Below are positions 1 through 24,410 of a stretch of 24,843 nt of DNA, in pieces. A program made the translations under genes and the position numbers. The DNA comes from a virus: positions 1-24,843 of the IMG/VR virus record IMGVR_UViG_3300010885_022505. One strand, given 5' to 3'. Below the pieces are notes generated by a model. The model searched no databases and was not told the DNA's origin. It worked only from the letters and a program-made list of their open reading frames with translations. Position 1 is the stretch's first letter. Each line of letters begins with the position of its first letter.

Positions 1-722
1 ATCATGTCAAGCATGCGTTCGATTCCAAGGTTTTCTTGTTCAACGATCTTTCCAAGTCGACCTTGTACTCGCTCGCCTGCTTCGTATTCGTCTGTGCGTT
101 CTACGTACATACGACGTGCCTTATATGGCGATTGCAGTGGATCTGGATTTGGAAAAGTTTCCACTGTAATTGCGCCAAGTATGTCATAGAAGTATGGTGC
201 TTGAATTGCAAGCTGACCTTGCAGATACGGACGTGAACGACCGTCTGCTCCAGGACGCGCCATGGCAGTCAATACAACAGCTTCTAATGGTTGTGTAGGG
301 TGCATTGTTAAGTCACGCAGGTCACGCAATAGCGCACCCATGTGACGAAGTAGCTCGCCCCATTGTTGCATCTTCATTTGTTCAGTGCCCGCAATTGAAT
401 CCATGCACTTCACTTGAAGTTCAGAGATGGAATCAATGATTAGTGACTTGAACTGATGTTTTCCAGTTTGTAACCACTGGAATGTCTTGAGAACAACATC
501 ATAGTCGCGAACGTTAACGACTACAGTATCCCAGGTGCCATCGGCAACTGGAGGTTCTTCTCTAATAGGGTCCCAGTACTTAACGGTGATAGGTAGGAAT
601 CTATGCCCACCCTCAACGTCAAGCATGAGACGCGGATATGGTGCGGTTACCGCGAAGGTTGATTTACCAACCTTTGATTCGCCGTAAACCATGATAGTCA
701 ACGAACGTTGTACGTCAGACAT
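1..722 (-). CDS. RecA/Sak4-like P-loop ATPase (3' end beyond window)
   Basis: The frame opens with ATG at 722 behind an AGGA-type ribosome site and stays open to position 1, so 240 codons are visible and the C-terminus is missing. Residues 14-22 form a Walker A loop (GESKVGKST). A later hydrophobic strand, SLIIDSISEL, looks like Walker B. The pattern of an N-terminal P-loop followed by a short DVEGG strand and the IIDSI strand is that of phage AAA_24/Sak4-type RecA-fold ATPases, which assist single-strand annealing or recombination. It follows the Cas4-like nuclease with a 39-base gap, in keeping with a recombination module. A general phage nucleotide-binding protein is the safer name; the recombinase role is inferred from family and neighbours. 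Confidence 0.8.
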   Translation of the reverse strand, partial: MSDVQRSLTIMVYGESKVGKSTFAVTAPYPRLMLDVEGGHRFLPITVKYWDPIREEPPVADGTWDTVVVNVRDYDVVLKTFQWLQTGKHQFKSLIIDSISELQVKCMDSIAGTEQMKMQQWGELLRHMGALLRDLRDLTMHPTQPLEAVVLTAMARPGADGRSRPYLQGQLAIQAPYFYDILGAITVETFPNPDPLQSPYKARRMYVERTDEYEAGERVQGRLGKIVEQENLGIERMLDM

Positions 723-761
723 CACTGTTTCCTTTCATCTCTGTGTTTGTTTGTAACATTA

Positions 762-3577: not shown

Positions 3578-4030
3578 TTATTGTAGGAGTCTTCTAGGGA
3601 TCCATCCTAGCTTTACGCACTGTAATAAGGCATGTCGTATCGCGTCAAGTGCGTGTCCTTCACCGCCCTTATGCCAATATTCCAGCTTCTTAAGTTTAGG
3701 ATTATCAAACATTGCCTTTGCGTCAGCAGGTGATTGAAAGTAGATGTCATCTGCACTTCTTCCTGCGTCCATAAGACATTGTTTTAGAATACCAATTTGC
3801 TCGAGGCTATATGGAGCCTGCGTCTTTTTAGCAGTCTGAGCGTTAATGATAAAGCGCTCGCAGACGATAACTACGTCAGGATACTCGACAAGAGTTTCTC
3901 GAATAGGCTTAGCGTATTCCTCCTGTTGATATTCTCCAGCCCAGACTAAGACAGGTTCCTGTCCTCTTTCAAACGAGAACAAAGTCATGCCTGTTGCCTT
4001 GCCTGGGTCTACCGATAAGATCATCTTCAC
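3578..4030 (-). CDS. RuvC-like Holliday junction resolvase
   Basis: This 150-residue protein has the RNase H-like fold signature of phage RuvC-type resolvases: SVDPGKATG with D8 on strand 1, VCERF with E58, and GEGHALDAIRH with H126/D129 near the end. These acidic residues would bind the two metal ions that cut branched DNA. Length is typical of phage RuvC homologues. The start is GTG at 4030, sharing one base with the TAG of the DNA polymerase gene (TAGTG). An internal ATG at 4024 is a possible alternative. Its place between polymerase and helicase fits resolution of replication or recombination intermediates before packaging. Confidence 0.87.
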   Translation of the reverse strand: MKMILSVDPGKATGMTLFSFERGQEPVLVWAGEYQQEEYAKPIRETLVEYPDVVIVCERFIINAQTAKKTQAPYSLEQIGILKQCLMDAGRSADDIYFQSPADAKAMFDNPKLKKLEYWHKGGEGHALDAIRHALLQCVKLGWIPRRLLQ

Positions 4031-5853
4031 TAGTATTTCTCTCCCCAGTTTTCCATAGGACCGTCAACACCGGCTGTAAGCGGAACTGCCCAACCTTCAG
4101 TGGTAGTCATGCATTCCTTAACTATGCGCTTGATTTCTTCAACGTTATTACGCGGCGCGTTGAGAACAATTTCATCGTGCACAGGGACAATTAGCAATTC
4201 GGTAAGATCTGCTTGATCTAGCTTTACAAGGTTCTGCTTAAATATCTCAGCAGCTCCTCCTTGAGCTAAGTAGTTAAGTAATGTGTAAACTCGATCTTCA
4301 TCACAAGGAAGTCTACGACCTGTCCATGTATGAACATACCCTTGGCCTTCTGCCTTGAGACGACGCATTCCTACATCTTCAATTTTTTGCTGAAATCCGG
4401 TCATGCCTGGGAAGCGTGTGTCAAACTGGCTGACTACAGTCTTCATTATGTTCTCTGGTACACCTGCGGTAAGTGCCTGCTTTGCAACACCTGCTCCGTA
4501 GAGACGACCATAGATCATTCCTTTGATGAGACCTCGTCGCTTGTCTGAACGCTGAAAGTTTGGATCACTGTATACTTCTTTTCCAATTTCAGTAAACGGG
4601 TCTGATCCAGTGAGGTCTGCCTGATGAAACATGCCGATAAGGTTTGGGTCTTCTGTGAGAGAGGCAACCATTCTAAACTCAACCTGGTCAAGGTCTGACG
4701 TAACAATTACATGATCTTCGTCCTTTGGGATAAACGCACGACGAACAACGTCATCACCCTTAGGTAAAGTCTGCAGCGCCGGGTTTTGAATTGACATACG
4801 TGAGGTGCGAGCGCCAAGTGTTTTAACAGATGGGTGCACAAAGCCGTTGACGTTATCGTTAAGAAAGTTGGCAAAGTAGGTATTAGCAAGCTTATCTGCC
4901 TTACGCTGCTTTAGCACGATTTCAGCCAAAGCCTTTACCTCATCATTGCCCTCAATGGTAAGTAGCTTGAGTTGATCCTTTGAAGCTGATTTTTGTCCCG
5001 AAGGTGTAAACTCGTTTATCTCTGCGCCAAGTGATTCTAGCAAGCGCACTAGTTGAATGTTGCTGCCAATAGAAACTCCGTTGTATTTTTCCTTAGCCCA
5101 TGTCTTAACTGATCCCGCGTATTCTGTCAACTCATCAAACTTCTTCCTTGAGTAGTCAAGGTCGATACGTGCGCCGTTAATTTCCATGCGAGTAACAATG
5201 CGACGTGTTGCCATCTCTAGCTCGTATGCTCTGTTGTATGGACCGTCAGGGCCACACTTTTCATAAAACTTTTCCCACAGGCGCATAGTTAAGATGCAGT
5301 CTAACGCACCGTATGCCCAATAAGGCTGAAAATTAGTAGGAACAGTTCCCCATGTCCAACCGTTAGTTGCTAACTCTGTGTCTAAGGTATCCTGCAAGGC
5401 AACCGCACGGCCGTCAATATACAAAGCTGCAAGACGCTTTAACGCACCAACACCAAGCGGATCAATAATGTGCGCCATAATCATTGTGTCGTGCGCGCGA
5501 TGCCAAGGCAGCTTCCAGCGCGATTGAATATCAAACCATCGAGCTTCAAACGCGATGTTGTGGCAAACAATTTGTCCATCAAACTTATCCATAGCTTGAT
5601 AGAACGCACCTGCCCACTCTTCCCATGACATTGCCCACGCTTGTTGACCATCGCCAACCTGCACTAGACGCAGGCGTCCGTGCCAAGGCGACAGTGCGTC
5701 CTTACGTTCACGCCCTGGATACTCTCCAGTTTCAGTGTCAATCGCAATTGCGTTGTGAGGACGACGCTCGCCAAGCCAGGTTAAGAACTCACCTGCTTTT
5801 TCAACGCTATCAACAAGGTGAAGTTTTACATCACCTAATCCTTCAATTGTCAT
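4030..5853 (-). CDS. DNA polymerase I (family A) with 3'-5' exonuclease
   Basis: A 607-residue phage replicative polymerase without a 5' nuclease domain. Exonuclease motifs are intact: AIDTETG (D39, E41), CHNIAFEARWF (98-107) and YGALDC (D185). Polymerase motif A is TSDLDQVEFR (D387), motif B is RRGLIKGMIYGRLYG (K444, Y448) and motif C is VPVHDEIV (HDE 559-561). The residue equivalent to E. coli Pol I F762 is tyrosine (Y448), as in T7 polymerase. Length and layout match the Pol A of many actinobacteriophages. The ATG at 5853 lies inside the last codons of the dCMP deaminase gene (11-base overlap), with GAGG six bases upstream. Confidence 0.96.
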   Translation of the reverse strand: MTIEGLGDVKLHLVDSVEKAGEFLTWLGERRPHNAIAIDTETGEYPGRERKDALSPWHGRLRLVQVGDGQQAWAMSWEEWAGAFYQAMDKFDGQIVCHNIAFEARWFDIQSRWKLPWHRAHDTMIMAHIIDPLGVGALKRLAALYIDGRAVALQDTLDTELATNGWTWGTVPTNFQPYWAYGALDCILTMRLWEKFYEKCGPDGPYNRAYELEMATRRIVTRMEINGARIDLDYSRKKFDELTEYAGSVKTWAKEKYNGVSIGSNIQLVRLLESLGAEINEFTPSGQKSASKDQLKLLTIEGNDEVKALAEIVLKQRKADKLANTYFANFLNDNVNGFVHPSVKTLGARTSRMSIQNPALQTLPKGDDVVRRAFIPKDEDHVIVTSDLDQVEFRMVASLTEDPNLIGMFHQADLTGSDPFTEIGKEVYSDPNFQRSDKRRGLIKGMIYGRLYGAGVAKQALTAGVPENIMKTVVSQFDTRFPGMTGFQQKIEDVGMRRLKAEGQGYVHTWTGRRLPCDEDRVYTLLNYLAQGGAAEIFKQNLVKLDQADLTELLIVPVHDEIVLNAPRNNVEEIKRIVKECMTTTEGWAVPLTAGVDGPMENWGEKY

Positions 5854-6322
5854 CTACGTCCTCTGTTATTACTACCTCAATGTTACATTTCTTAAAATAG
5901 TCTACTGTTGCATCCGGCAAACGATGAGCCGCCCGCGTTCCAATTCTCATGACAACGCGCGTAATACCAGAGTTAGAAATTAACTTTGCGCACTGATAGC
6001 ATGCTGCGTCTGTTATGTAGATGGTACCACCTTCTACGCGAGAACGATCAACGTATAGCAACGCATTTGACTCGGCGTGAATCGACGGGCATGAATCATA
6101 CGTGTTATCAAGTGCAGTTACTCCCTGCGCGCGCGGGCACCAGTCGATACAGTCTCCTTCAACTGGGAACAAGGCGGCAGGACCGTTGTAACCCGTCGAG
6201 CTTATGCGTTGATCCTTAGACACAACAACAGCTCCGATGTGAGCGCGACTACAGCGAGATCTCTGCGAGATTGTATCTGCAACTTGCATCCAGACATCGT
6301 CCCAGGAAGGACGACTATTCAT
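5843..6322 (-). CDS. Deoxycytidylate (dCMP) deaminase
   Basis: A zinc-dependent cytidine deaminase fold of the ComEB/dCMP deaminase type, converting dCMP to dUMP. The active-site HAE is in SIHAESNAL (about residue 82). The second zinc motif, usually PCxxC, reads ACYQC here (C108, C111). The extra pair in DCIDWCPR fits the structural zinc of dCMP deaminases. I chose ATG at 6322, which overlaps the stop of the small upstream gene (ATGAATAG) and has GTGGGA ahead. An in-frame GTG at 6331 would add three residues but lacks a ribosome site. In T4-like nucleotide pathways this enzyme coexists with dCMP hydroxymethylase, the combination found here. Confidence 0.92.
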   Translation of the reverse strand: MNSRPSWDDVWMQVADTISQRSRCSRAHIGAVVVSKDQRISSTGYNGPAALFPVEGDCIDWCPRAQGVTALDNTYDSCPSIHAESNALLYVDRSRVEGGTIYITDAACYQCAKLISNSGITRVVMRIGTRAAHRLPDATVDYFKKCNIEVVITEDVDDN

Positions 6323-6482
6323 CTGTCCCACTAAAAAGTGATGTTGTAAGAATTTTTGACACTAAATTTAGCGCGTCCTTCTTGCTAAAGCCCGCGGCTC
6401 TAAGCTCAACATACATCTCATGGAGTTGCACAGTTGCCTCACGCAGGGGACTTTCATTGAACCCCTCTAATTCATTACTCAC
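6315..6482 (-). CDS. Small helical protein of unknown function
   Basis: A 55-residue protein not matched to a family. I place the start at GTG 6482 because AAAGGAG lies seven bases upstream; a longer reading from 6554 would sit almost wholly inside the glycosyltransferase gene without such a site. The start codon lies in the last codons of the glycosyltransferase gene (GTGAGTAA), and its stop overlaps the dCMP deaminase start, so it bridges the two genes by coupling. The body (LREATVQLHEMYVELRAAG, then FSKKDALNLVSKILT) predicts two amphipathic helices and no membrane segment. Proteins of this helical type are common in phage replication operons, with no known job that I can assign. Confidence 0.7.
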   Translation of the reverse strand: MSNELEGFNESPLREATVQLHEMYVELRAAGFSKKDALNLVSKILTTSLFSGTDE

Positions 6483-7518
6483 TACGTTCTCCTTTCTGGT
6501 TTGCCCATAGTTGATCACATCTTCTAATGTACTTATTCGTGACGCCAACTGCAAACTCTATTGCCTCAGATGATACTTTGTACATCACATTATGCTGCCC
6601 TGGGGCAAGTATTTTTCCCCAGTAGGGAGCTAGTTTCTTAGCGAGAGGAGAAAAGCTGTCGGAAAAAGAGTGGTCGCTAACAAGAAGAGGATTATTATCT
6701 TCAGGGTGCATCTGAAGTCTATCCCACATCTGCGCAATATCTTCATCTGGCGTTATAGTCTTTGCAAAAACCTTGTTTGCAAAGTTATTGTTGACACGTT
6801 CGTGCACGTCCTTGCGCGCCTTAAATCTCTTTAAGCTTGTATAAGGTAGATGACATATTAGCCAATCTTCCTTACTAGACGCAGCAACTGTTGTATCCCA
6901 TAGTTCCCAGAACTTGCCGTCGCCATACTTAAGTTGATGCTGCCCGGCGTCAACAAAGTCGCCGGAGTTGTTTTTTACTAATATCTTTGACGGAACCCTA
7001 AACTCATGTAGAAGCTTCTCGTTTCGTTTAACCTGCTCGTGAAACTCGTCGCGGTCTACCACGTGGTTAATAGACGTGACGTAGTGATTGACAAGTTGAT
7101 AATCATCTAGTCTAGTATCGATAAACCCAGACGGCACTATGTAGTTTTCCAGCTGCATTGCTATGGCATTCCACCTAGCGTCTAGACTTGACAGATGATC
7201 CCTTATGCTTTTTCTAGTAGGGCTAACCAAAAATTCATCAGCGTCAAAGATAAAATTCCAATCAGGATTTTCCTTGTTACTAATGTCAAGAAGAATGTTA
7301 GTTAATGCTTCCTGGTCAAACAGCGTGTCCTCGTAGCGAAATACCTCTATTTGATCTGGCCATACCTTTTGCAACTCAACAAGACCGTTTTTAGTGTCGT
7401 CTGTGCTCGAGTGGTCAATGACAAATACCTTGTCAACATGGTAAAAAAGTGCATGCGAAATAGATATACCTAGTAAAGGCCACTCATTTCTCGCAATGAC
7501 AACTCCGTGAATTTTCAT
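6475..7518 (-). CDS. Glycosyltransferase, GT2 / GT-A fold
   Basis: A 347-residue protein whose first 100 residues are a GT-A sugar-nucleotide domain: IHGVVIARNEWPLLG, then VFVIDHSSTDDT (33-42), and the metal-binding DxD in FIFDADEFLV (residues 92-94). This is closest to the family-2-type 'Glyco_tranf_2_4' enzymes. The C-terminal 200 residues are not assigned. The ATG at 7518 overlaps the TGA of the hydroxymethylase-like gene (ATGA). Family members most often glycosylate polysaccharide or protein. Here, coupling to a dCMP-hydroxymethylase-like gene raises the possibility that the acceptor is 5-hydroxymethylcytosine in DNA, as with T4 glucosyltransferases, although those are a different family. 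The acceptor is an inference. Confidence 0.83.
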   Translation of the reverse strand: MKIHGVVIARNEWPLLGISISHALFYHVDKVFVIDHSSTDDTKNGLVELQKVWPDQIEVFRYEDTLFDQEALTNILLDISNKENPDWNFIFDADEFLVSPTRKSIRDHLSSLDARWNAIAMQLENYIVPSGFIDTRLDDYQLVNHYVTSINHVVDRDEFHEQVKRNEKLLHEFRVPSKILVKNNSGDFVDAGQHQLKYGDGKFWELWDTTVAASSKEDWLICHLPYTSLKRFKARKDVHERVNNNFANKVFAKTITPDEDIAQMWDRLQMHPEDNNPLLVSDHSFSDSFSPLAKKLAPYWGKILAPGQHNVMYKVSSEAIEFAVGVTNKYIRRCDQLWANQKGERSE

Positions 7519-8366
7519 CGGCTCTTGATAGCCTTAATCATCGCGTTGGCATACCATGCCTCAAAAGGATGTAGTGCACTAAGAAGCATAGGGTCTTCTC
7601 TGTGCGTTGCAGCTGTTAATGCAGACATCGCGCGATCTCGTACCTGTTGCCAGTTTGCGCCCGTGATGGCAGGTATATTTTCATAACGCTCAGTTGTGTG
7701 CTTTAGATTTTCTGCGGTCTCGTAGTGTTGCTCGTAGATATGAAGAGATCCAACGTGATGCGCATACGTGCCAGGTGCAATATCTAAGACTGACGCCATG
7801 GCAATTTGCACACGTGTAAACTGGAAGAAGTCATACGCGGCGCCTAGCCATACGTCGTTTGAGCGCATGTAAACGCTCATGTTAAGTTTGTTATCACGGA
7901 TTCTAAATTGGTGCAGGATTGTGCATGGGTAATCACGCTTCTCCGGGAGTAGATCTAGCTCAGGGTTCCAGATTGTAACCACTGCCTGTCGTGAATCAGG
8001 ATCCTTCTTAAGACGCTCGATAACTGGTTCATACTGGTTCTCTGTGCGTGCGCCGTATGCTCCATGAAATATGCCGTTGTCCTCGGCGTAGTTCTTAAAC
8101 ATCGGACCTACCTCGATAACAAGCTTAGGAGTTGCGGTGCCTGCTAGAAGCTGGCAGGCTTCAACCGCACCAATTCCCGCGACAGTTCCACGACCTACAC
8201 CTAGCGGAAGCGTGTTGCGCACGTCATCAATACGAATTATTGCGTCCTCAATCTCGCGGGTCTTCATTCCGCGGGGAGCTGCCTCCTTGCCGTATTTAAG
8301 AACGTGCTGAACGAGATCAACGTATCCGTTAACTCCGTCAGGTATGTTGATTATCGCAGTATCCAT
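7515..8366 (-). CDS. Thymidylate-synthase-family enzyme, likely dCMP hydroxymethylase
   Basis: A 283-residue ThyA-fold protein. Family landmarks are DPDSR (122-126), catalytic C148 in DYPCTILHQF, and MRSNDVWLGAAYDFFQF (167-183). In thymidylate synthases the last block has Asn (LGLPFNI in E. coli), which reads the uracil ring. Here it is D179, the residue used by T4 gp42 dCMP hydroxymethylase at the same site. The RSND string and VGSLHIY (205-211) are also closer to T4 gp42 (RSND, VGSLHVY, from memory) than to ThyA (RSCD, GGDTHLY). The expected product is therefore 5-hydroxymethyl-dCMP rather than dTMP. ATG at 8366 has AGGG seven bases ahead and overlaps the kinase gene by 16 bases. Confidence 0.85.
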   Translation of the reverse strand: MDTAIINIPDGVNGYVDLVQHVLKYGKEAAPRGMKTREIEDAIIRIDDVRNTLPLGVGRGTVAGIGAVEACQLLAGTATPKLVIEVGPMFKNYAEDNGIFHGAYGARTENQYEPVIERLKKDPDSRQAVVTIWNPELDLLPEKRDYPCTILHQFRIRDNKLNMSVYMRSNDVWLGAAYDFFQFTRVQIAMASVLDIAPGTYAHHVGSLHIYEQHYETAENLKHTTERYENIPAITGANWQQVRDRAMSALTAATHREDPMLLSALHPFEAWYANAMIKAIKSR

Positions 8367-9367
8367 TGATCATCCCTATCTCTCTTGTTAGATAAACGTG
8401 TAATAGCCTGGCCGTATTCTTCTTTTCTTGAGTTAAAAAATCGTCTTACGTATTGCGGGTGAGAAGTTACAGAGTAAAGATAGCTAGGTATGTTTGCATA
8501 CATAAGTCCTTTTTCCGCAAGACGCCCTAATGCAACTATAGGTGGACGACGTAGTGTAGCCCAGAGATCATCAAAGCGCTCTGGAGACATGTCGTTGATG
8601 TTAACTATTCCCATCGTCTTCCACTCCTCAGACTCCAAGGCCGTAAGTAAAAACTCGCCGGAGTTTCCGTCAACCGGCATAAATGGAAGCCTAGTCTCCT
8701 CGCCATATCTTTTACTGATGTTTCTGGTGTCACCTACAAGAAGCACCCTTGGAAACCTTTGCCCGATGTACTCTGGAAACCTTACAAGATCCTTCACGTC
8801 ATCCTGAAGCGTCTCTGCACGGCTGATAACCTGTGACGCAAGTCTTGGTATCTCGTCAAATGAGTCAGGAGGGGGAGTTAGTTTCCCGGCAAGTCCCGCG
8901 GAGTTTGCGGCTGCTACCGCGTATAGATCTAGGATCTGTTCAAGTTCATGTGCCTGTATGTAATCGTCACCGCGAGCATTAAGACGACGAGTAATAACGT
9001 CAAGAGGTTGATACAGCCAAAATTGAGATACACCGCGAGATTTAAGAAAGAGCTCTGTCCAACGCCACCCTGCAACACCAAGGAGACCATATCCATCACC
9101 AGAACCAGTCTCAGGGCGTTTAACCGCGGCGTATGTTACCTCGCCCCAATGCCACCGGTCTGCAACCGCAAGGCGCCTTGACCAGTCAACTTTTTCGATA
9201 GACGTAACGTAATCCTGTAGAACCCAACGACGCGTCATCTCTTCAGGCTTAGACTTATGGTAGAACTCAATTTCCTGTTTAGGAAACTTCTCGGCAAGTT
9301 GCCTTTGTATCTCAGACACAAGGGTAGATTTACCTGAGGCGTCCGTGCCTTCAACTACTATAAACAT
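8351..9367 (-). CDS. Thymidylate/dNMP kinase-like P-loop domain fused to UDG-like domain
   Basis: A 338-residue two-domain protein. Residues 1-185 are a thymidylate-kinase-like NMP kinase: Walker A GTDASGKST (7-15), ADRWHW (69-74) in the usual DR-x region, and RRLNARGDD (127-135) as a lid-like arginine segment. Residues 205-325 look like the uracil-DNA glycosylase superfamily (family 4/5 layout): VLLVGDTRN at motif I, PF...GNSGEFLLTAL (228-243), PPIVALGRLA (275-284) and SHPQYVRRF (302-310) at motif II. Motif I (GDTRN) departs from the usual GEAPG, so activity is uncertain and base binding is possible. This is the first gene after the 9399 promoter; AGGA lies eight bases before the ATG. A role phosphorylating hydroxymethyl-dCMP is inferred from context. 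Confidence 0.78.
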   Translation of the reverse strand: MFIVVEGTDASGKSTLVSEIQRQLAEKFPKQEIEFYHKSKPEEMTRRWVLQDYVTSIEKVDWSRRLAVADRWHWGEVTYAAVKRPETGSGDGYGLLGVAGWRWTELFLKSRGVSQFWLYQPLDVITRRLNARGDDYIQAHELEQILDLYAVAAANSAGLAGKLTPPPDSFDEIPRLASQVISRAETLQDDVKDLVRFPEYIGQRFPRVLLVGDTRNISKRYGEETRLPFMPVDGNSGEFLLTALESEEWKTMGIVNINDMSPERFDDLWATLRRPPIVALGRLAEKGLMYANIPSYLYSVTSHPQYVRRFFNSRKEEYGQAITRLSNKRDRDDQWILR

Positions 9368-9393: not shown

Positions 9394-9402
9394 ATTATAA
9401 CA
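9394..9402 (-). promoter_or_regulatory. Extended -10 promoter before the nucleotide-metabolism block
   Basis: On the minus strand a perfect TGT-TATAAT (extended -10, TGnTATAAT) sits in the 47-base gap between the gene ending at 9415 and the kinase ATG at 9367. No good -35 is present, which extended -10 promoters can tolerate. The start site would fall near 9387, giving a leader of about 20 bases that holds the AAAGGA ribosome site. It probably drives the kinase, hydroxymethylase and glycosyltransferase genes and those downstream. Confidence 0.6.
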
Positions 9403-10543: not shown

Positions 10544-12418
10544 TTATCCTACCGCACTTACCCACGCTGAGTACCCAGCTGAATTTCCAGCCCTAACAAA
10601 CATTCTAACCCAAGTATACGTATTTGATGTTGATGTAACTCTTCCTTCAAATATACTAGTCCCGTAGACTGTTGCGGCAGATGCTACTGTATAGGCGTTT
10701 GTCGCTGTTGTAAGCGGAGTCCCCGCCGACAGAGCGGCAGCTGAAGCATAGTACTTAAAGTTGCTGTTTACAGCAAACCAGGGTCCAGAGCTAGAAGTGG
10801 ATGCCTCAACATACACCTGGTAGTAAGCTGCAGCGCTATGGCTTGCATCAACTGATGGCGCACTCCATGACGAACTGTTAAATACAAGGTTAGGAGCTGT
10901 TCCGCTTGACGGTGTAGACAGTCCAGTAGGTGCATTTGGTATAGTGGTGACAGCAGCAGTGGTAGTAAAGGTAGCAGTATCTGGGCTTGCGTATGCAAAA
11001 GGGCCAGTCTGATCTGTTTTTGTGTACGCTAAAATTTGATAGGTGTACGCTGTGCCAGCCGTAAGCCCAGTTAAAGCCTGGCTTGATACGTTGCTTGCCA
11101 AGTCAAATGGTGAACTAGTAATGTTTGTTCCTGCCTGTCTTACGTACAACTTGTAACTTCCAGCGCCTGTTGCGCCCGACCAGCTTATCGTTGCCGTAGT
11201 TTGAGTGATAGAACCAGCGCTTTGAGTAGGAGTTGCCGGCGAGGTGTATATGGTTGCGCTCCCAGGCATTCCAACTGTGTTAGAATTTGCAGCTCTAATA
11301 TAGAGAGTATTAGTGCTTCCAGTTCCTAATCCGGTAAATGTATACGATGTTACGTTTCCTATGGAGGTGTAGGTTGATCCGTCGGTGCTAGATTGGTATG
11401 AAGTTGCCCCAGTTATGGCAGACCACGTAACTTCCGCTGATGTTGAGGTGTACGTAGCGCCTTGATTTAAGGAAGGAGCTTGTAGTTTAGTGTATATAGT
11501 ATTCGTGTCTGGAGAAGCATATGTAAATGACCCGGTCTGACCTGCCCCGGAATAGGCTAATATTTGGTAATAATACGGAGTATTACGTGAAAGACCTGAA
11601 GAGATGGTTAAACTTGTAGTTGCCGTGGTGTATGAGTATGGAGAAGACGCAACATTTGTCAACGGAGATAGCGATGACCAAACATATAACTTCCAGCTGC
11701 CGGTTGTTCCTGTTCCGGCTGCCCAGCTTATAGTAATTGAGGTGTCCGTTGACGTAGCGCTTTGCGTAGGTGTTCCCGGCGCCGCGGTTGGAGTTCCGGA
11801 CACGGTTCCCGCCGTGCCGTATAGCGCAGTTGATGAGTTATATGCCTTCACATAGAAAGTATACGCAGTTCCTGTTGTTAGTCCGGTAAATGTATAAGAT
11901 GTCACATTTCCTACGGAGGTGTAGGTTGATCCATTTGTGCTAACGTAGTATGCAGTAGCTCCGCTTATCGCAGACCAGCTGACAGTTACAGACGTAGCGG
12001 CTGTCGCAGAAACGCTTAACGAGGGAGTCGCGGGCGTAGTGTAAAAGGTAGCGGTAGCAGTTGTTGTAAATCCACTAGGAAATGAAGTCCAGCCCTGAAC
12101 TGTTGCCGTGTAACTAGTATTTGCACTTAAGGCTGCTGTAGTATAAGTAGTAGTAGCTCCAAGGTCTTGTTGAGAAAAAGCGGCAGGAGAAATGCTTAAT
12201 CTAAAATAGGCGTATCCAACCGACGATATGGTAAAGGTAGCGTTAGTAGCAGTGACATTTGATACCGCTAGGGAAAGAGCGGATGAAGTAAAGAATGTTT
12301 TCCAAGCTCCTGCAACTTTTACATATCCGTCAGATACAGTCTTCCAGGCTCCACCTACCTTTACATAGTAGCTTGTAGCAGTCTTCCAGGAACTTGAGAC
12401 CTTAGCGTAGCTAGCCAT
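10544..12418 (-). CDS. Fibronectin type III tail/appendage protein
   Basis: A 624-residue, Ser/Thr/Ala-rich protein. Residues 4-43 hold three short repeats of the form YVKVGGAWKT, seen at the start of many phage tail-tip proteins. About five fibronectin-III-like domains follow at 46-128, 129-211, 213-311, 312-394 and 395-487, and a divergent beta domain fills 494-624. Typical strand patterns are SVTVSWSAISGATAYYV and TSYTFTGLTTGTAYTFYV. Domains 2-3 and 4-5 are a tandem duplication visible in the DNA. Such proteins usually decorate the tail tip or fibre and bind cell-surface sugars. The ATG at 12418 overlaps the TAA of the fibre gene (TAATG). It may be the receptor-binding protein; that is an inference. 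Confidence 0.82.
   Translation of the reverse strand: MASYAKVSSSWKTATSYYVKVGGAWKTVSDGYVKVAGAWKTFFTSSALSLAVSNVTATNATFTISSVGYAYFRLSISPAAFSQQDLGATTTYTTAALSANTSYTATVQGWTSFPSGFTTTATATFYTTPATPSLSVSATAATSVTVSWSAISGATAYYVSTNGSTYTSVGNVTSYTFTGLTTGTAYTFYVKAYNSSTALYGTAGTVSGTPTAAPGTPTQSATSTDTSITISWAAGTGTTGSWKLYVWSSLSPLTNVASSPYSYTTATTSLTISSGLSRNTPYYYQILAYSGAGQTGSFTYASPDTNTIYTKLQAPSLNQGATYTSTSAEVTWSAITGATSYQSSTDGSTYTSIGNVTSYTFTGLGTGSTNTLYIRAANSNTVGMPGSATIYTSPATPTQSAGSITQTTATISWSGATGAGSYKLYVRQAGTNITSSPFDLASNVSSQALTGLTAGTAYTYQILAYTKTDQTGPFAYASPDTATFTTTAAVTTIPNAPTGLSTPSSGTAPNLVFNSSSWSAPSVDASHSAAAYYQVYVEASTSSSGPWFAVNSNFKYYASAAALSAGTPLTTATNAYTVASAATVYGTSIFEGRVTSTSNTYTWVRMFVRAGNSAGYSAWVSAVG
10958..12034 (-). repeat. 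Tandem duplication of a two-domain FN3 unit
   Basis: The unit coded at 11486-12034 (domains 2+3) recurs at 10958-11485 (domains 4+5). Long stretches match at the DNA level, for example around 11331-11410 and 11882-11960 (shared core GGAGGTGTAGGTTGATCC). The protein phrases YTS-GNVTSYTFTGL and QTG-F-YASPDT recur. Retained DNA similarity suggests a recent duplication or recombination between copies. Confidence 0.8.
12290..12409 (-). repeat. Three YVKVGGAWKT repeats
   Basis: Residues 4-43 of the FN3 protein contain YAKVSSSWKT, YVKVGGAWKT and YVKVAGAWKT, spaced 14-15 residues apart. The shared K-V-x-x-x-W-K-T pattern suggests a small beta-repeat attachment segment at the N-terminus. Confidence 0.75.
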
Positions 12419-14391
12419 TATGCAGTGTACACCAATACAACGTCGCCGTCAGTTCCAGTGGTATCTGATCCCGCAGTAAAAGAAGTAACACACTTAATAT
12501 TTCTTAAGGCATACCGGCTGTAAAGTGAACCAGTACTTAATTCTGCATAAGTATTTGTAATTAAAATGTTGTTGTTGTTACTGCCGCCTACAACTCCTAT
12601 TATTGCGTATCCTGAAGTTCCAGTTCCTGCAGAGTTTAAGACTATAGCGCCACGGCCAGTTCCTGATCCAAAACTTTGCCCGTATATACTTAGATTACTG
12701 CTAGTGCCTGACAGGTTAGCAGCAATGCTTAAACCTCCAGGTGCGCTGCCAGCTCCTGAGTCCATCGCGATCCCAACTCCTGAAGATTCCCAACTAAGAA
12801 CTGTTGGAGCAAGAGTCACACGCGGAGCGCCCGAACTTACAGAGGAAAACGATGTGACTGAGTTGGTGCTGATAACGCCAGATGTCAAAGTAGGAGACGT
12901 CATAGTGATAGCAGCAGCGATAGTTCCGGCGTTAATTTGAGTTGTGTTAATAGTTCCTGTGTAGATAACATTAACGTCAAGTGATCCGGCATTTATCTTA
13001 TTTGCGTTAATAGTCCCCGAGTATATAACGCCTGCCGCAAGTGTACCTGCGTTGATCTGGCTAGCATTTACAGTTCCGGCATAGACGATGTTTGACGCAA
13101 TCGTGCCGGTGCTAATCTGGTTGGCGTTAAGACTTCCAGCATACACAACACCAGCCGCTAGAGTTCCGGTAGAAATTTGCGTTGCCGATATACTTGTTAT
13201 CGCACTGCTACCAAGAAGAATTGATTTCCAACCGGCGCTATTGGTAATTGTGCCTGACGCCGCGGCTGATGTGACGTTTGTAGCTGTCTTAGCATAGGTA
13301 AGTGTCGTAGTTGTAGGCACTGCAATAACTGTGTATGTACCGTTAAATGTTGCGTCTACGGATGTAACTACGATGGACTCGCCGGGAGTGAAGCTGTGCG
13401 CGGCCGAGGTTGTCAATGTCGCAACGTTAGATGTAAGAGCCTTGTTAGATACCGTAGAAGATGTTGAAAGAGAGTACCTGTAGATGGCGTTATCACCGTC
13501 GGTGTCAAACCAGGTGTCTCCTGCAACGTATGTTCCGCCTGTCGGCACGGTTGTTTGACGATATATCTTGTTTTTTCCGTCCGCCGTGCTTTGCGCTGCT
13601 AGAGCCGCAGCTTCACCTGCTGCTGCTGCCGCTGCCGCTGCTGCTGCCGCTGCCGCTGCTGCTGCGATTGCAGTATCTTGAGAAGATACCCATCCAGCAG
13701 CGCTGATAGCCGAACCTGAAGATGCCACTGACACAACGTTAGATGCTGTTTTAGCATAGGTAAACGTAGAAGTTGTAGGAGTAGAGGCTACTGTGTATGT
13801 GCCGTTGAATGTGGCATCTACCGCCGATACAGTAATGCTTTGACCAATTGCTAGTTCATGAGCCCCGCTAGTTGTTAAGGTTGCAACGTTGGACGTAAGA
13901 GCCTTGTTAGATACCGTAGAAGTTGTACCAAGTACGTATCTATAAAGTTTATTTCCATCATCGCTGTCATACCATAGATCATTTTCCTTATACGTTCCAC
14001 CAGTTGGTGCAGATGTTTGAACATAGATGGTGTTTTTTCCATCAGCGGTTTGCTGAGCGTTTGCATCTGTGACAGGGACAAACTCATCAAGATCTGTGCT
14101 GTAGAGTTGGTACTCGCCGGTGTCTGGGTTAAACCAGCCGGTGCCTGGCTTTAAGTATTCTGTTGGCTCGGTGTCGCTAACAACGGTAGTTCCGAAGGAT
14201 GCCTCGTTAGGTGTTACCGCGTCTTCTTGAATTACCTTTGTTGTTACCGCACGGTACCCAAGCTTCTCAGTTGTTACAACGTTAGCCTTGAGACGTTTTG
14301 CAGCAGGCCGCTTCTCAACACGGCGAACGCGTTTCTCAACGTCAACGATAACCTTGCCGATACTCTTACGGCGTCTACGTCTACTGGCCAA
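12418..14391 (-). CDS. Repeat-rich minor tail / tail fibre protein
   Basis: About 657 residues. A basic N-terminus (MASRRRRRKSIGK) is followed by a helix, then two ~120-residue units (TADGKN to AAGW/SAGW), each ending in an E1_FCCH-like beta module. A run of 16 alanines separates the units. Five 20-residue repeats of the type AGTLAAGVIYSGTINANKIN follow, which should form a trimeric beta-helical stalk, then a Gly/Ser-rich C-terminal head. This layout is that of a trimeric fibre. The start is likely TTG at 14391, nine bases after GGAGG; TTG at 14400 directly abuts the same GGAGG and is less likely. The frame overlaps the minor tail gene upstream. Numbering in the repeat entries counts from 14400. 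Confidence 0.83.
   Translation of the reverse strand: MASRRRRRKSIGKVIVDVEKRVRRVEKRPAAKRLKANVVTTEKLGYRAVTTKVIQEDAVTPNEASFGTTVVSDTEPTEYLKPGTGWFNPDTGEYQLYSTDLDEFVPVTDANAQQTADGKNTIYVQTSAPTGGTYKENDLWYDSDDGNKLYRYVLGTTSTVSNKALTSNVATLTTSGAHELAIGQSITVSAVDATFNGTYTVASTPTTSTFTYAKTASNVVSVASSGSAISAAGWVSSQDTAIAAAAAAAAAAAAAAAAGEAAALAAQSTADGKNKIYRQTTVPTGGTYVAGDTWFDTDGDNAIYRYSLSTSSTVSNKALTSNVATLTTSAAHSFTPGESIVVTSVDATFNGTYTVIAVPTTTTLTYAKTATNVTSAAASGTITNSAGWKSILLGSSAITSISATQISTGTLAAGVVYAGSLNANQISTGTIASNIVYAGTVNASQINAGTLAAGVIYSGTINANKINAGSLDVNVIYTGTINTTQINAGTIAAAITMTSPTLTSGVISTNSVTSFSSVSSGAPRVTLAPTVLSWESSGVGIAMDSGAGSAPGGLSIAANLSGTSSNLSIYGQSFGSGTGRGAIVLNSAGTGTSGYAIIGVVGGSNNNNILITNTYAELSTGSLYSRYALRNIKCVTSFTAGSDTTGTDGDVVLVYTA
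12910..13188 (-). repeat. Five 20-residue stalk repeats in the fibre
   Basis: Residues 405-497 consist of five copies of a 20-residue unit with consensus INAGTLAAGVIYAGTINANQ. The period is exact (60 bases each) and hydrophobic positions are kept, as in triple beta-helix fibre shafts. It is coding and has no spacers, so it is not a CRISPR array. Confidence 0.85.
13228..14049 (-). repeat. Duplicated 120-residue unit with E1_FCCH-like module and poly-Ala linker
   Basis: Unit 1 (13690-14049) and unit 2 (13228-13587) share TADGKN, PTGGTY, a DxWxD segment, then an E1_FCCH-like module (13708-13914 and 13243-13452). The modules share STVSNKALTSNVATLTTS exactly, and the DNA around 13430-13460 and 13885-13920 is nearly identical. 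Between them, 13618-13665 codes 16 alanines in mixed GCN codons. Confidence 0.82.
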
Positions 14392-16348
14392 TCTTGTCAA
14401 CCTCCGGCTCTGTAACTAGCAGCAGCTCAGTTTCCTCCGGGAAACTTGGTGTGTCTGGGACTGAAACCTTAAATCCTTCAATCTTGCGAACGATTACTGT
14501 ATCGCGAACCTCGAGATCACTTGCAAGACGCATTCTTACAAATTCGTCTTCAACGATAATTGAGCACCAGTCTCCCGGCACAAACTCGCCGATCTTCGGA
14601 GATAGAGATCCGTTAACCTTTACCTTGATGTCTGAGACAGGAGGACGTGACTCTGCGAGGTATCGTTGAGCGTGACCGTATAGCGCGAGCTCGTCTGATT
14701 CCTCGCTGCGAGTCTCCTCTCCATCGAGTAGCGGCCAGCCTGCGGCTAACAGATCGGTAGCGGACGCGACAGCGTAAGGCTGGCTGATGTCATCGCCAAG
14801 ATCTGGGATGTTTCCAACAACAAAGAAGCGTGTTGCCGCGTCCTCGGCAGATTCTTCCATGGTTACGTCGATGATGCTTCCGGGATACTCAAACACAAGT
14901 TGATCAGCGCCGTAGCGACTTGGCGGAGAGACCTGTCCCTCCGCGGGAGGATTTGGATAGTCAATAGGTATAAGAACAAATGTGCGTGTAAACGTAGGGA
15001 TGTCGCCGATGTAGACAAGTTCGCAGTCAATACGATATTCAAAACCATCTACCGTGTCGGAGTACTCGTCTAGTTCCTCGCCGACGGACTTTAGTTCATA
15101 TCCGCGATATGGATTATTTGGCACGTTCTTACCGCTATACGCATCTGTAGAATATGAGATATCAATGTCAGAGTTGCCAGGAAACGGCCCGTATGTTCCA
15201 ATGTCCACAGTTGATTGAACAACCGCAGTTCCACCGGTTACCGCTGTCGCAACCATGTCGCTGTCCGCGACATAAACCCTAAACGTCGTGGCGGTTGGCA
15301 CGTCTACAATCTGATACTCGCCGTCAAATACTATGGTAAGAGAAGTAGGGTCATCTACGCCTGTAAGCACAACGGTGTCGTATTGTGCAAAGCCGTGGGC
15401 ATTGCTTGTGGTAATCGTTGCGGTAAAGTCGGCAACTGACTTAAGTGTTACTGTTTTAGTTATGTTCTTTACCGAGGACGTTAACGATGATGCAATGGTA
15501 AACGTAGTAGCGCTTGGTGTTGCGACTACATCCCACAAACCGTCAAGACCAGCCGACACGTTATAGATTTCTAATGACTGCGTAGGTATCAGGTTGTGAG
15601 CAGACACGGTGGTTACGGTAGTTACGCTTGACGGCGCGGTAATAGATGTGATTCGCAGACTAGTAGTAAGAGCAGGCTCTATGTCCGTGTTAGGAAATGA
15701 GATGTCGCTAAAGTCCACAAGAATCTCGTCAAGCAGCTGGCGCACGTAGTCGTAGGTGTCAACACGCGCGTAGACTGTTACACCTACGTATGTCCCGTTG
15801 GGAACGGACGTGCCGGTAATTGTAAACGTAGCATTTGTAGGAGAGGATGCTATCGTGTAGTATGCGTTATAGATAAAGTCAGAAACCTCTGGAAATATAA
15901 GACGCACCGACGATCCTACGGGAAAGTCATACTCCAAGGATTCTAGGGTTCCAGTTAGTGTTCCGCCAGACGCGACGATGGTTGCGCCAAAATCGTGAGT
16001 ATATGTCTTCCAGATGTTACGGTGGAAGAAGTAGCTGGTAAACTCTGACGCGCTAACACTTAGGTCTCGATCAACAACGTTGTAGTTGCGGTTCCAGATA
16101 ATTCCACCCCAGACGCACTCGCTATCGCGAACAACGTAGAGTCCAGTTTTTCCCGGCATCGTGCTTTCATATAGGTTCATTGACGCTGTCTCCGGGATAA
16201 CCGGTATGCTGCCGCCAAAGCTTCCCGCGGCCTTGATGGATCTTTCAAAGGAAACTCCCTTAAAAGGAATCTCCGCAAGTACTTCGTTAGTTAAAAGATC
16301 GGTGGTAAAATATCGGTATATGGCCGCGTCTGATTGGTACAGTACCAT
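14381..16348 (-). CDS. Minor tail protein with inserted beta modules
   Basis: A 655-residue protein. The N-terminus (FKGVSFERSIKAAGSFGGSIP, then GKTGLYVVRDSECVWGGIIW at 67-85) and the C-terminus (PGDWCSIIVEDEFVRMRL, RKIEGFKVSVP) match the actinophage minor tail protein found right after the Dit-like gene, comparable to Gp37-type (ReqiPepy6) siphovirus proteins. It would sit at the tail tip. The part between about 121 and 378 is mostly extra beta modules: a clear one at 297-378, a weaker one at 232-287 and a marginal one at 121-192. ATG at 16348 has GAGGT upstream. The end overlaps the start of the fibre gene. Confidence 0.83.
   Translation of the reverse strand: MVLYQSDAAIYRYFTTDLLTNEVLAEIPFKGVSFERSIKAAGSFGGSIPVIPETASMNLYESTMPGKTGLYVVRDSECVWGGIIWNRNYNVVDRDLSVSASEFTSYFFHRNIWKTYTHDFGATIVASGGTLTGTLESLEYDFPVGSSVRLIFPEVSDFIYNAYYTIASSPTNATFTITGTSVPNGTYVGVTVYARVDTYDYVRQLLDEILVDFSDISFPNTDIEPALTTSLRITSITAPSSVTTVTTVSAHNLIPTQSLEIYNVSAGLDGLWDVVATPSATTFTIASSLTSSVKNITKTVTLKSVADFTATITTSNAHGFAQYDTVVLTGVDDPTSLTIVFDGEYQIVDVPTATTFRVYVADSDMVATAVTGGTAVVQSTVDIGTYGPFPGNSDIDISYSTDAYSGKNVPNNPYRGYELKSVGEELDEYSDTVDGFEYRIDCELVYIGDIPTFTRTFVLIPIDYPNPPAEGQVSPPSRYGADQLVFEYPGSIIDVTMEESAEDAATRFFVVGNIPDLGDDISQPYAVASATDLLAAGWPLLDGEETRSEESDELALYGHAQRYLAESRPPVSDIKVKVNGSLSPKIGEFVPGDWCSIIVEDEFVRMRLASDLEVRDTVIVRKIEGFKVSVPDTPSFPEETELLLVTEPEVDKIGQ
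15215..15460 (-). repeat. E1_FCCH-like beta module in minor tail protein
   Basis: Residues 297-378 include TATITTSNAHGFAQYDTVVL and VFDGEYQIVDVPTATTF, the pattern shared with the other copies (TTxxAHGF, then G-x-Y-x-I, then V-P-T-x-T-T-F). A weaker copy precedes it at 15488-15655 (TTVSAHNLIPTQSLEIYNVS, then VVATPSATTFTIASS). A marginal one at 15773-15988 keeps only the YTIASSPTNATFTI ending. Confidence 0.65.
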
Positions 16349-16393
16349 TTGTTATACCTCACTAAGTAGATTCGTCGTTGAGTACATTGTATA

Positions 16394-18031
16394 CTATCCA
16401 AGCCATGCAGAGCGGTAATATATGGTCAAGGACGCAGAGCTTGTCAGATCTCCGTCATCGTAGAAACTAAACACGTTTGCGCCTGGAGCTAGAAGTGTCC
16501 ACTCCGCAAGAACGTCAATAAGACTGCGCTTGCCGACTGCATCACCGTTAAGCGCAACCTCGTGATCTTTTGTGTCAACCTCAAGAATATCCGCGGTAGA
16601 TGTAATTGTCCCAGAGCTAGCAACAGATACTACGTTGGTCGCAGTTTTAGCGTAGGTAAGCGTTGTGGTTGTTGGGACAGTTAATATCGTAAAGGTACCG
16701 TTGAATGTTGCGTGAACACCGGATACAACTACCACATCACCTGCAAGTAGTCCGTGCGCCGCCGTTGTGGTTAGCGTCGCGATGTTACTCGTTAAGGCCC
16801 TGTTAGAAACTGTAGGTGTTAGGACTCCGCGCAACGCGCCGATGATGGTGATAGCCTCGTTGGTTGTCTCGTTAAGAATAGTTGCAGGGCCAACGATGGG
16901 ACCGGTAACCTCAAACACGACAGGTGAGTATGCGTTTCCTGTGTTTGTAACCGTGCCTGTTCCAGATCCGACAGTTCCTGAATCTTCTCCTGCAATCGTC
17001 ACCGCGCGATAGCCTAGCTCGTTTCCTTCATACCACTCGTACTTAAGAGGATCTGGAGCACGAAGACCGATTGAAAATTCAGTGCGTCCACGCGCGTTTA
17101 CAGTTTGAATGTCTGGCCGTCCAGACAGGCGAACAAACGAAGCCTTGGTAGGATTTTCATTTGTCCTTAGCCATCCGCCTACATACACAAGATCTGTCTC
17201 CTGAATAAGCTTGTCTCTCGACACTGGAATCAACGACGGATCCGGGGTAAGAAAGACTCCGGTAAGGGTAATTTGACGAGCTTGGTAGCGTCCGCGCACG
17301 TCGTAGGAGCCATCGCCCCAACCGCGAGGAATATCGTTTACCTCCGGCTCGGGGTGAACCCACCAGCCCTCAATGTCTGTGCACACCCAGACGACACCGT
17401 TTTCGTCTATCGTGTTAAGAACAAGACTACCGATGGAAACATCGGCGTTAAGCTGCATTCCCGTGATCTTAGGAATAGGTAAAGGCGTAAGCCCTAGGTT
17501 GACGTACTTGTTTTCAGTTGCCTGCGTTACGTCGTCAAAATACTCACCGACGTAGGACGCGGCCTCAAACATAAATGCGTCCGCATAGAATTTCTTGCTA
17601 ACCGTGCCAGCCAACGGCTGAACAACCGAGATTGACGCTCCAAGGGCTAATGAAGGCGCTGTCATTACACCCATTAGTCTTATCCAGTCATCACCTGGGG
17701 TGTTCTCTAAACCGATTGTGGACGTTGTAGAGATAAGGCTACCGCCTGTTAGGGCGGTGTACCAGCCGACGTTGATTTGGAAGGTCCCGGTCTCTTGTCC
17801 TGCAGGTACCTTTACATATCCGGCAACCGCGTATGAGGTAGCGGCGGAGACTGAGATGCGAGATGCAATCACCGCACCTGAGTTTACAGCCGCGGCCTTT
17901 GTAATCTCAAGACACGAGGAACCAAAGAAGGCGTCGGTTGTAATACGTGTAATTGTAGAAGACCCCGTGGCAGACCAGCCTGTTGTGTTTGTCTTAAAGG
18001 AAGGGTTGACGACTAGGTTATTTCTCGCCAT
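16394..18031 (-). CDS. Distal tail (Dit-like) protein with N-terminal carbohydrate-binding-like domain
   Basis: A 545-residue protein. Residues 1-165 (NLVVNPSFKTNTTGWSATGS and FYADAFMFEAASYVGEYFDD) have the start and end signature of a CBM4/9-type jelly-roll. Residues 180-400 are the actinophage Dit/sipho-tail domain (VSIGSLVLNTIDENGVVW, GRYQARQITLTGVFLTPD, IGLRAPDPLKYEW). An E1_FCCH-like module (407-479) is inserted between GALRG and DILEVDTKDHEVALNG, two segments normally adjacent in Dit. Residues 480-545 complete the domain. The gene follows the tape measure directly (TAA, then ATG at 18031, with GGAGG from the TMP end), the standard Dit position. Dit forms the hub below the tail tube. Confidence 0.85.
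   Translation of the reverse strand: MARNNLVVNPSFKTNTTGWSATGSSTITRITTDAFFGSSCLEITKAAAVNSGAVIASRISVSAATSYAVAGYVKVPAGQETGTFQINVGWYTALTGGSLISTTSTIGLENTPGDDWIRLMGVMTAPSLALGASISVVQPLAGTVSKKFYADAFMFEAASYVGEYFDDVTQATENKYVNLGLTPLPIPKITGMQLNADVSIGSLVLNTIDENGVVWVCTDIEGWWVHPEPEVNDIPRGWGDGSYDVRGRYQARQITLTGVFLTPDPSLIPVSRDKLIQETDLVYVGGWLRTNENPTKASFVRLSGRPDIQTVNARGRTEFSIGLRAPDPLKYEWYEGNELGYRAVTIAGEDSGTVGSGTGTVTNTGNAYSPVVFEVTGPIVGPATILNETTNEAITIIGALRGVLTPTVSNRALTSNIATLTTTAAHGLLAGDVVVVSGVHATFNGTFTILTVPTTTTLTYAKTATNVVSVASSGTITSTADILEVDTKDHEVALNGDAVGKRSLIDVLAEWTLLAPGANVFSFYDDGDLTSSASLTIYYRSAWLG
16595..16813 (-). repeat. E1_FCCH-like module inserted in Dit domain
   Basis: Residues 407-479 of the Dit-like protein read TVSNRALTSNIATLTTTAAH, then GDVVVVSGVHATFNGTFTI and VPTTTTLTYAKTATNVVSVA. 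The segment is close to the two fibre copies at 13243 and 13708, including parts of the DNA, suggesting copying between genes. Confidence 0.8.
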
Positions 18032-24311: not shown

Positions 24312-24355
24312 TTATCTATCCCGTCTAATCGTCGTTAGTGTATATCTTAATAGAG

Positions 24356-24399
24356 GAGCGGCATGCCTGTGTTGGTGGTAACACATCGGCATGCCGCTC
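24356..24399 (-). terminator. Long perfect hairpin after the major virion gene
   Basis: Arms GAGCGGCATGCC (24356-24367) and GGCATGCCGCTC (24388-24399) pair perfectly over 12 bp. Inside, TGTGTT/AACACA adds six more pairs around a GGTGGT loop, with a 2-base bulge. It fills the 99-base gap between the gene ending at 24411 and the adaptor at 24311. No strong U-run follows on the transcribed strand, so it may be a partial terminator, an RNA-end stabiliser or a processing site that sets high expression of the gene before it. Confidence 0.7.
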
Positions 24400-24410
24400 A
24401 CATTCTATTA

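Follow-up and report, generated by a model that had tools for sequence, protein, structure and literature searches.

Does a phage that encodes an overlapping kinase, ThyA-family enzyme and glycosyltransferase replace the cytosine of its DNA in the manner of T4? The question is raised by a 24.8-kb fragment of a lake virus (the whole stretch of DNA analysed, here called the window), whose host is probably an actinobacterium. The initial annotation had read a cassette of this fragment as an NMP kinase, an enzyme with dCMP-hydroxymethylase residues and a GT-A glycosyltransferase acting on DNA, the same three activities by which T4 makes glucosylated hydroxymethylcytosine (hmC). On the evidence of gene content and residues, cytosine is very probably modified in the phage DNA, and the modified base is likely to be glycosylated. 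A T4-like hmC pathway with glycosylation is likewise a likely property of this freshwater actinophage lineage, leaving aside the step assigned to the window's own glycosyltransferase. Modified cytosine, as first proposed, is well supported. The residue tests favour it, relatives were found to have no second thymidylate synthase and to carry a conserved dCTPase-like gene, and Stenotrophomonas phage AXL3, with the same kinase-hydroxymethylase cassette, has a published restriction phenotype in keeping with it.

The three genes lie on the minus strand exactly where they had been placed (Table 1), with overlaps of 16 bp (8351-8366) between the kinase and ThyA-family genes and 4 bp (7515-7518) between the ThyA-family and glycosyltransferase (GT) genes. 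The 16-bp overlap is kept by 72 of 82 relatives; every one of the nine GT-bearing loci has the 4-bp overlap. The extended -10 promoter also stands: among 50 distinct upstream regions from relatives, 31 contain TGnTATAAT, mostly 26 nt ahead of the start codon, whereas 1000 shuffles gave a mean of 0.16 and a maximum of 4. A simple sigma-70 scan did not list this element, because the scan demands a -35 box. A dCMP deaminase gene is indeed encoded downstream, but not directly after the GT gene; a short conserved gene intervenes, recognised by similarity in most relatives between the hydroxymethylase (HMase) or GT gene and the deaminase gene. The family A polymerase gene is syntenic in relatives. 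Activity names, in the table and below, are predictions.

Table 1. Features of the cassette and its surroundings in the window
Feature	Position	Strand	Evidence or remark
Extended -10 element TGTTATAAT, without -35	9394..9402	-	26 nt upstream of kinase start
Two-domain kinase, 338 aa	8351..9367	-	AF2 model; YorR/TMK fold matches; phage G gp315 homologue
dCMP-type pyrimidine (deoxycytidylate) hydroxymethylase, ThyA superfamily, 283 aa	7515..8366	-	PF00303 6.7e-30; diagnostic residues
GT2-family (GT-A) glycosyltransferase, 347 aa, clade-specific accessory gene	6475..7518	-	PF13704 1.5e-12
Short conserved gene, GTG start, 55 aa	about 6315..6482	-	similarity in relatives; start read from sequence
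dCMP deaminase	5843..6331	-	PF00383 1.1e-17; phrog_174 3.3e-46
Family A DNA polymerase with 3'-5' exonuclease domain, same operon	4030..5853	-	PF00476 5.3e-52
RecA-like gene, low end of window	3..725	-	

The ThyA-family enzyme was evaluated by published diagnostic residues for pyrimidine hydroxymethylases (PMC8670742, PMC6400193). The catalytic Cys, Arg166, Tyr94, Glu58 and His207/Tyr209 of the ThyA domain are all conserved among 62 sequences. At the position of E. coli thymidylate synthase (TS) Asn177 all 62 relatives have Asp, as do T4 gp42 and MilA, whereas TS and the SPO1 dUMP-hydroxymethylase have Asn. Thr at TS position 147 is invariant in the 62, and all of them also have Asp at the position of T4 Asp145, three residues ahead of the catalytic Cys, where TS has Leu; this Asp is a proposed hydroxymethylation signature (PMC6400193). 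Both the His147 of TS and the Trp of its 'IW' motif are lost in the window protein. Arg and Ser (62/62 each) occupy the positions of MilA Lys133 and Ala176, which by the criterion of PMC6400193 indicates a preference for deoxy- rather than ribonucleotides. Every tested dCMP-type or hydroxymethylation residue is present, with the sole exception of a serine specific to T4: the T4 Ser94 position (Ser/Thr two residues before Tyr96) is Gly in 62/62, as also in phage G and AXL3, and we therefore do not file the window HMase in the T4 gp42 subfamily.

Two other readings of this enzyme have to be weighed. In work cited in PMC8670742, a single Asn-to-Asp change suffices to make thymidylate synthase a dCMP methylase, so that the DNA might carry 5-methylcytosine, as in Xp12, with the GTs acting elsewhere. 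That is improbable, given the invariant signature Asp before the Cys, the loss of His147 and of the 'IW' Trp, and the best solved relative of the enzyme, which is itself a hydroxymethylase (MilA CMP 5-hydroxymethylase, 2.6e-24); moreover, enzymes like the T4 beta-glucosyltransferase (BGT) would have no substrate on a 5-methyl group. The cassette could instead serve ordinary thymidylate supply through dCMP deaminase, thymidylate synthase and thymidylate kinase. Database annotation says so for the cassette genes of DSL-LC01 and Gordonia phages (thymidylate synthase/kinase), and the AXL3 authors proposed dTMP synthesis (PMC7504290). Yet Asp stands in every relative where dUMP enzymes have Asn, the scores fall far under the NCBIfam thymidylate synthase cut-offs, a dCTPase-like gene accompanies the cassette in 10/10 relatives, and AXL3 has a separate ThyX-type protein (PMC7504290). 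Plain thymidylate synthesis, which is, if anything, slightly the less probable of these two, was rejected as at odds with the tests of residues and of genome content. The ten long relative genomes each encode one PF00303 protein, and no ThyX was found in them.

The kinase of the preferred hydroxymethylase pathway is, as annotated, a predicted P-loop NMP kinase, with a second, C-terminal domain that had been overlooked. Residues ~1-190 are of the thymidylate-kinase (TMK)/YorR type; the AF2 model (pLDDT 93.8) matched YorR (Z 18.2) and TMK (Z 15.7) over residues 1-204. Residues ~195-338 form a domain like those of the uracil-DNA glycosylase (UDG) superfamily. Its homologue in phage G, gp315, matches PF03167 at 1.5e-12, and the kinases of four close relatives give sub-threshold matches (0.0016-0.19); the window's own domain gives none to PF03167. 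The columns of the UDG motif skeleton (PF, N, LG, HP) are conserved, and both sequence relation and motif support a place for the domain in the superfamily. A profile search of the PDB with this domain returned nothing. Among the fold matches listed for the kinase model there is no solved UDG and no T4 gp1; the kinase domain filled these lists. The two-domain kinase is common to the window lineage, phage G and AXL3. The equation with T4's three activities holds only by analogy, the kinase resembling TMK/YorR with no relation to gp1 seen.

The window GT belongs to the PF13704/PF00535 GT2 family, a GT-A class by family match (48.3 bits with PF13704 against a curated cut-off of 27.5), with a DxD motif, FDADE, at residues 91-95. 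The T4 DNA glycosyltransferases (a-gt and b-gt) are of the GT-B fold class, which the window GT does not share. Its carriers are monophyletic on the PolA tree, a single clade, and close relatives keep the other cassette genes without it; on this distribution it is a clade-specific insertion into the operon. Its lower G+C content (42%) suggests acquisition. A profile search of the PDB gave nothing useful, and no relatives were found in 84,980 bacterial and archaeal genomes (alignment A1) by a weak search using two short patterns only. The claim that this GT acts on DNA fares less well than the others: the enzyme is GT-A and occurs in one clade, and the BGT-like GT-B protein of ten relatives is the better candidate, so that action on DNA is the somewhat doubtful option. 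It may attach a second sugar, or its role may lie elsewhere. The chance is a little short of even that the cassette makes hmC while this GT glycosylates virion proteins, such as collagen-like tail fibres, or the host surface. Besides the GT2 family, narrow distribution and apparent acquisition, this reading is favoured by the other GT2-like genes of these phages, which are found at different places and adjoin collagen-like genes (DSL-LC01) or lie near them (G005, G008). Its overlap with the HMase gene in every copy, strong purifying selection (dN/dS 0.07) and a place in a nucleotide-metabolism operon, outside the fibre region, argue against a role on such targets.

The better candidate, the GT-B family phrog_14998, is encoded in 10/10 relatives and 0/14 cellular controls, near the dCTPase-like gene. 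The window ends before this module, whose presence in the virus is predicted from synteny: in mapped relatives it lies just past the position of the RecA-like gene. The top match of the GT-B AF2 model is T4 BGT (Z 18.1, 304 residues), with other GT-Bs nearly as good (SenB, Z 17.1); a profile search of the PDB gave nothing useful. Homologues in T4-like phages adjoin arabinose-phosphate or UDP-galactopyranose-mutase (UGM) genes. The homologue of Morganella phage Rgz1 lies between an arabinose-5-P isomerase gene and an NDP-sugar gene, and those of Erwinia phage FBB1 and DSL-LC01 adjoin UGM. Against the pathway stands cyanophage C48C1, which carries the GT-B without a ThyA-family protein. From the model and the gene neighbourhoods we favour phrog_14998 as the DNA glycosyltransferase, with reasonable though not high confidence. 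That hmC stays free or bears a non-sugar cap, such as the carbamoyl group of MetaGPA phages, is unlikely; such caps are known beside similar HMase and dCMP deaminase neighbourhoods (PMC8670742), but the carbamoyltransferase profile PF02543 found nothing in ten relatives, all of which have the BGT-like protein.

The dCTPase-like protein matches PF08761 in all ten long relatives, located outside the window; we take T4 gp56 to belong to this family. MazG (PF03819) is absent from the relatives, and the MazG-like annotation of a DSL-LC01 protein was rejected, since that protein matches PF08761.

In the pathway that we propose, the phage dCTPase-like enzyme would lower dCTP and yield dCMP, which the ThyA-family enzyme would convert to 5-hydroxymethyl-dCMP. 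The overlapping kinase would phosphorylate this product, its fused UDG-like domain probably recognising the base, and the phage polymerase would build hmC into DNA instead of C. The conserved GT-B would then glycosylate hmC in DNA, and in the window's own clade the inserted GT2 enzyme could add a further or alternative sugar. Leftover dCMP would pass toward dTMP via dCMP deaminase. A fuller version, with a new hypermodified cytosine in freshwater actinophages, is speculative: the GT-B family adds possibly a furanose (because UGM genes adjoin its homologues), GT2 adds a second sugar in one clade, and the UDG-like domain reads the base and channels modified rather than plain dCMP to the triphosphate.

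T4-like cytosine hypermodification would thereby extend to a widespread freshwater phage lineage, so far metagenomic, with genes that carry thymidylate-synthesis annotations. Genes for a dCMP-type hydroxymethylase connect the window lineage with AXL3, phage G and the Gordonia phages; the kinase-UDG fusion is a further link among three of the four. The candidate DNA glycosyltransferase family phrog_14998 may stand in for the missing transferase of some T4-like phages. Since the Gordonia phages, among them Sixama, Phendrix, GodonK and GMA2, which share the core genes, are cultured, the base chemistry is directly testable.

Compared with the T4 glucosyl-hmC pathway (gp42, gp1, gp56, cd, a-gt/b-gt), the window lineage shares a dCMP-type hydroxymethylase, an NMP kinase and a dCMP deaminase, and its relatives encode the dCTPase-like protein and a putative BGT-like GT-B. 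It differs in its TMK/YorR-like kinase with UDG-like domain, its HMase without T4 Ser94, its extra GT2 and its virus, a probable actinophage with a family A polymerase; the GT-B had no sequence match to the T4 BGT Pfam model (PF09198), in a search without a positive control in which the controls gave none either. The MilA enzyme, closest in sequence among solved structures, has Asp at the base-recognition site as the window HMase does, but Lys133/Ala176 and ribonucleotide preference. Among RB69-type arabinosyl-hmC relatives, Rgz1 carries a relative of the lineage's GT-B; the proposed transferase of RB69 is ORF003c (PMC6024577). No coliphage is among the matches listed for the Rgz1 GT-B protein, and no arabinose-phosphate gene turned up in the window or in the regions of relatives that were read.

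Bacillus phage G (gp313-gp319) has the kinase-UDG fusion, a dCMP deaminase and an Asp-type ThyA homologue, with an alpha-glucosyltransferase (known by annotation only) nearby; unlike in the window, its genes are non-overlapping and in another order, and it has a second, canonical-scoring PF00303 protein. In AXL3 (gp27-gp30) a two-domain kinase gene overlaps that of an Asp-type HMase, with dCMP deaminase close by. AXL3 differs as a proteobacterial phage with ThyX, with a PRA-PH NTP-PPase in place of PF08761 and with no GT seen at the gp27-gp30 locus. In published digests, 35 of 37 restriction enzymes failed on AXL3 DNA, those with G/C in their sites included, and cleavage was confined to A/T-only sites (PMC7504290), a pattern that may fit modification of either C or G.

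In this 24.8-kb virus fragment, the gene coordinates confirm the three overlapping minus-strand genes described in the initial annotation, the kinase and ThyA-family genes sharing 16 bases and the ThyA-family and glycosyltransferase (GT) genes 4. The dCMP deaminase, which had been placed just downstream, does follow the GT in the same direction, with a short conserved gene in between and a family A DNA polymerase after it. Relatives of the window are IMG/VR contigs, the longest of 110-136 kb, and DSL-LC01, a freshwater metagenome-assembled phage and predicted actinophage. Wherever the contigs of these freshwater relatives reach, the kinase, ThyA-family enzyme, deaminase and polymerase are all kept, and the short gene is usually present too. 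Of 82 cases, 72 repeat the 16-base kinase overlap. The Gordonia phages Sixama, Phendrix and GMA2, distant relatives that are in culture, also have kinase, ThyA-family, dCMP deaminase and PolA in this order. The extended -10 promoter proposed ahead of the kinase, TGTTATAAT, is missed by a promoter scan that demands a -35 box; we nevertheless judge it real from its conservation, since, of 50 distinct upstream regions taken from relatives, 31 carry TGnTATAAT, in most of them placed 26 nt ahead of the start codon, while shuffles give a mean of 0.16. Several different structural proteins encoded elsewhere (12418-18031 and 22944-24842) share a repeated module rich in Ala, Thr and Val (like 'VSNKALTSNVATLTTSAAHSF..GDSVVVSGVDATFNGTYTVLAVPTTTTFTYAKTATNV').

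Features of the operon in the window
Feature	Position	Strand	Remarks
Extended -10 element TGTTATAAT	9394-9402	minus	precedes kinase
Kinase	8351-9367	minus	
UDG-superfamily-like domain fused to TMK-like kinase	8351-8785	minus	also phage G gp315, AXL3 gp29
ThyA-family enzyme	7515-8366	minus	
Glycosyltransferase (GT)	6475-7518	minus	
Short conserved gene	about 6315-6482	minus	
dCMP deaminase	5843-6331	minus	
Family A DNA polymerase	4030-5853	minus	

Two sources supplied the residue criteria for the ThyA-family enzyme: the structure of T4 dCMP hydroxymethylase (PMC6400193) and the MetaGPA study, in which Asp177 is the mark of ThyA proteins encoded on contigs that carry modified cytosine (PMC8670742). 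Among solved proteins the window enzyme is closest to MilA, a CMP 5-hydroxymethylase, and not to a thymidylate synthase. At the position of E. coli Asn177, which decides between dUMP and dCMP, the window enzyme shares Asp with T4 gp42 and MilA; the SPO1 dUMP-hydroxymethylase and thymidylate synthase have Asn. Position 147 is Thr, like T4, and three residues ahead of the catalytic Cys stands the Asp that activates water in T4 gp42 (PMC6400193), while Lys133 and Ala176, which confer ribonucleotide preference on MilA (PMC6400193), are replaced by Arg and Ser. Asp177, Thr147, the pre-Cys Asp, Arg and Ser are all invariant across 62 distinct relatives, which bears out the dCMP-hydroxymethylase residues noted in the initial annotation. 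One T4 feature is lacking: Gly stands in place of T4 Ser94, and likewise in phage G and AXL3. We therefore call the protein a predicted dCMP-type hydroxymethylase that would work like gp42, and do not place it in the gp42 subfamily.

Thymidylate supply is the alternative reading of such genes. Across ten long relatives, namely DSL-LC01 plus nine contigs, the window-type enzyme is the only PF00303 protein, ThyX is absent, and each has a protein of PF08761, the family of T4's dCTPase gp56. On these grounds, together with the residue test, thymidylate supply was rejected; judged by gene content, the relatives appear fitted to cytosine replacement. In Stenotrophomonas phage AXL3 the kinase overlaps an Asp-type ThyA protein, as in the window, with a dCMP deaminase nearby. 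On AXL3 DNA 35 of 37 restriction enzymes fail, and the two that cut have sites of A and T alone (PMC7504290), a pattern that fits C or G modification alike and does not separate them. The AXL3 authors read the kinase and ThyA genes as dTMP synthesis (PMC7504290); the residue test suggests dCMP hydroxymethylation instead.

The label of NMP kinase holds for residues 1 to about 190, which in an AlphaFold2 model (pLDDT 93.8) are thymidylate-kinase-like and nearest to Bacillus YorR (Z 18.2), but it missed a second domain at residues about 195-338, of which the 198-aa Sixama kinase stops short. An alignment with phage G gp315 spans 93% of the window kinase, and gp315 matches the UDG superfamily at 1.5e-12 and also solved UDGs. 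The columns PF, N, LG and HP(Q) are common to the window lineage, DSL-LC01 and AXL3, and N, LG and HP are kept in the phage G homologue; no match to a solved structure was obtained for the second domain alone. Modified cytosine is readable by UDG-superfamily proteins such as the defence protein Brig1, which excises alpha-glucosyl-hmC (PMC11078745), and by analogy we infer that the fused domain may read the base.

The window GT belongs to GT2/PF13704 and has an FDADE motif, and its family places it in GT-A, as assigned earlier. Only a small clade carries it, which the polymerase tree recovers as monophyletic (support 0.915) and the shorter hydroxymethylase tree does not resolve, and every copy overlaps the hydroxymethylase gene by 4 bases. 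Because it is missing from close relatives with 82-86% identical hydroxymethylase, has a G+C of 42% versus 47-49% in its neighbours and is strongly conserved within that small clade (dN/dS 0.07), the gene appears to have been acquired and to be functional yet dispensable.

A better candidate for a DNA glycosyltransferase is the GT-B protein of phrog_14998 (about 350-405 aa), encoded in relatives beyond the window end and matched in 10 of 10 relatives and 0 of 14 cellular control genomes. Its AF2 model has a GT-B fold (pLDDT 82) with T4 beta-glucosyltransferase as best PDB match (Foldseek rank 1; Z 18.1, 304 residues) and other GT-Bs close behind, e.g. SenB (Z 17.1). The order in mapped relatives is polymerase operon, RecA, phrog_14998, paralogue, PF08761 gene, methyltransferase, the module being read in part only where the fetched stretch was short. 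At L164 the conserved module also includes a DNA methyltransferase-like gene (L164:11459-12721) and a gene related to the one annotated as pyrimidine dimer DNA glycosylase in DSL-LC01 (L164:10593-11120), after which WhiB follows. DSL-LC01 has a TauD/TfdA dioxygenase (PF02668; L156:5802-6620).

Homologues of phrog_14998 are present in T4-like phages, among them Erwinia phage FBB1 and Morganella phage Rgz1. A UDP-galactopyranose mutase gene adjoins the GT-B gene in DSL-LC01 (L152:28945-30042), where it lies between that gene and the paralogue, and in Erwinia phage FBB1 (L317:4937-6001), where the two overlap, which may point to a furanose donor. A gp42-type hydroxymethylase with 60% identity to T4 gp42 is encoded by FBB1 as well. 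In Morganella phage Rgz1 the hypothetical protein RGZ1_40 (L319:3977-5044) is a relative; its gene lies near DNA polymerase, with an arabinose-5-phosphate isomerase on one side and a putative nucleotide-sugar gene on the other. According to a comparative study, related phages carry UDP-arabinose genes but no known transferase (PMC8056088). RGZ1_40 is a candidate for the sugar transferase that Morganella/Providencia T4-like phages seem to lack. Cyanophage C48C1 carries phrog_14998 and has no ThyA protein, so the association with hydroxymethylase is strong, not absolute. No tie of this GT-B to a DNA-glycosyltransferase role was found in the literature examined.

All chemistry of the pathway is inferred. 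On that footing, bases derived from 5-hydroxymethylcytosine are very probable in this phage, and a sugar on them is likely; that the window GT adds a second sugar is a tentative proposal, and it may act elsewhere. The lineage would thus vary the T4 scheme, by a kinase-UDG fusion and by this GT-B family.
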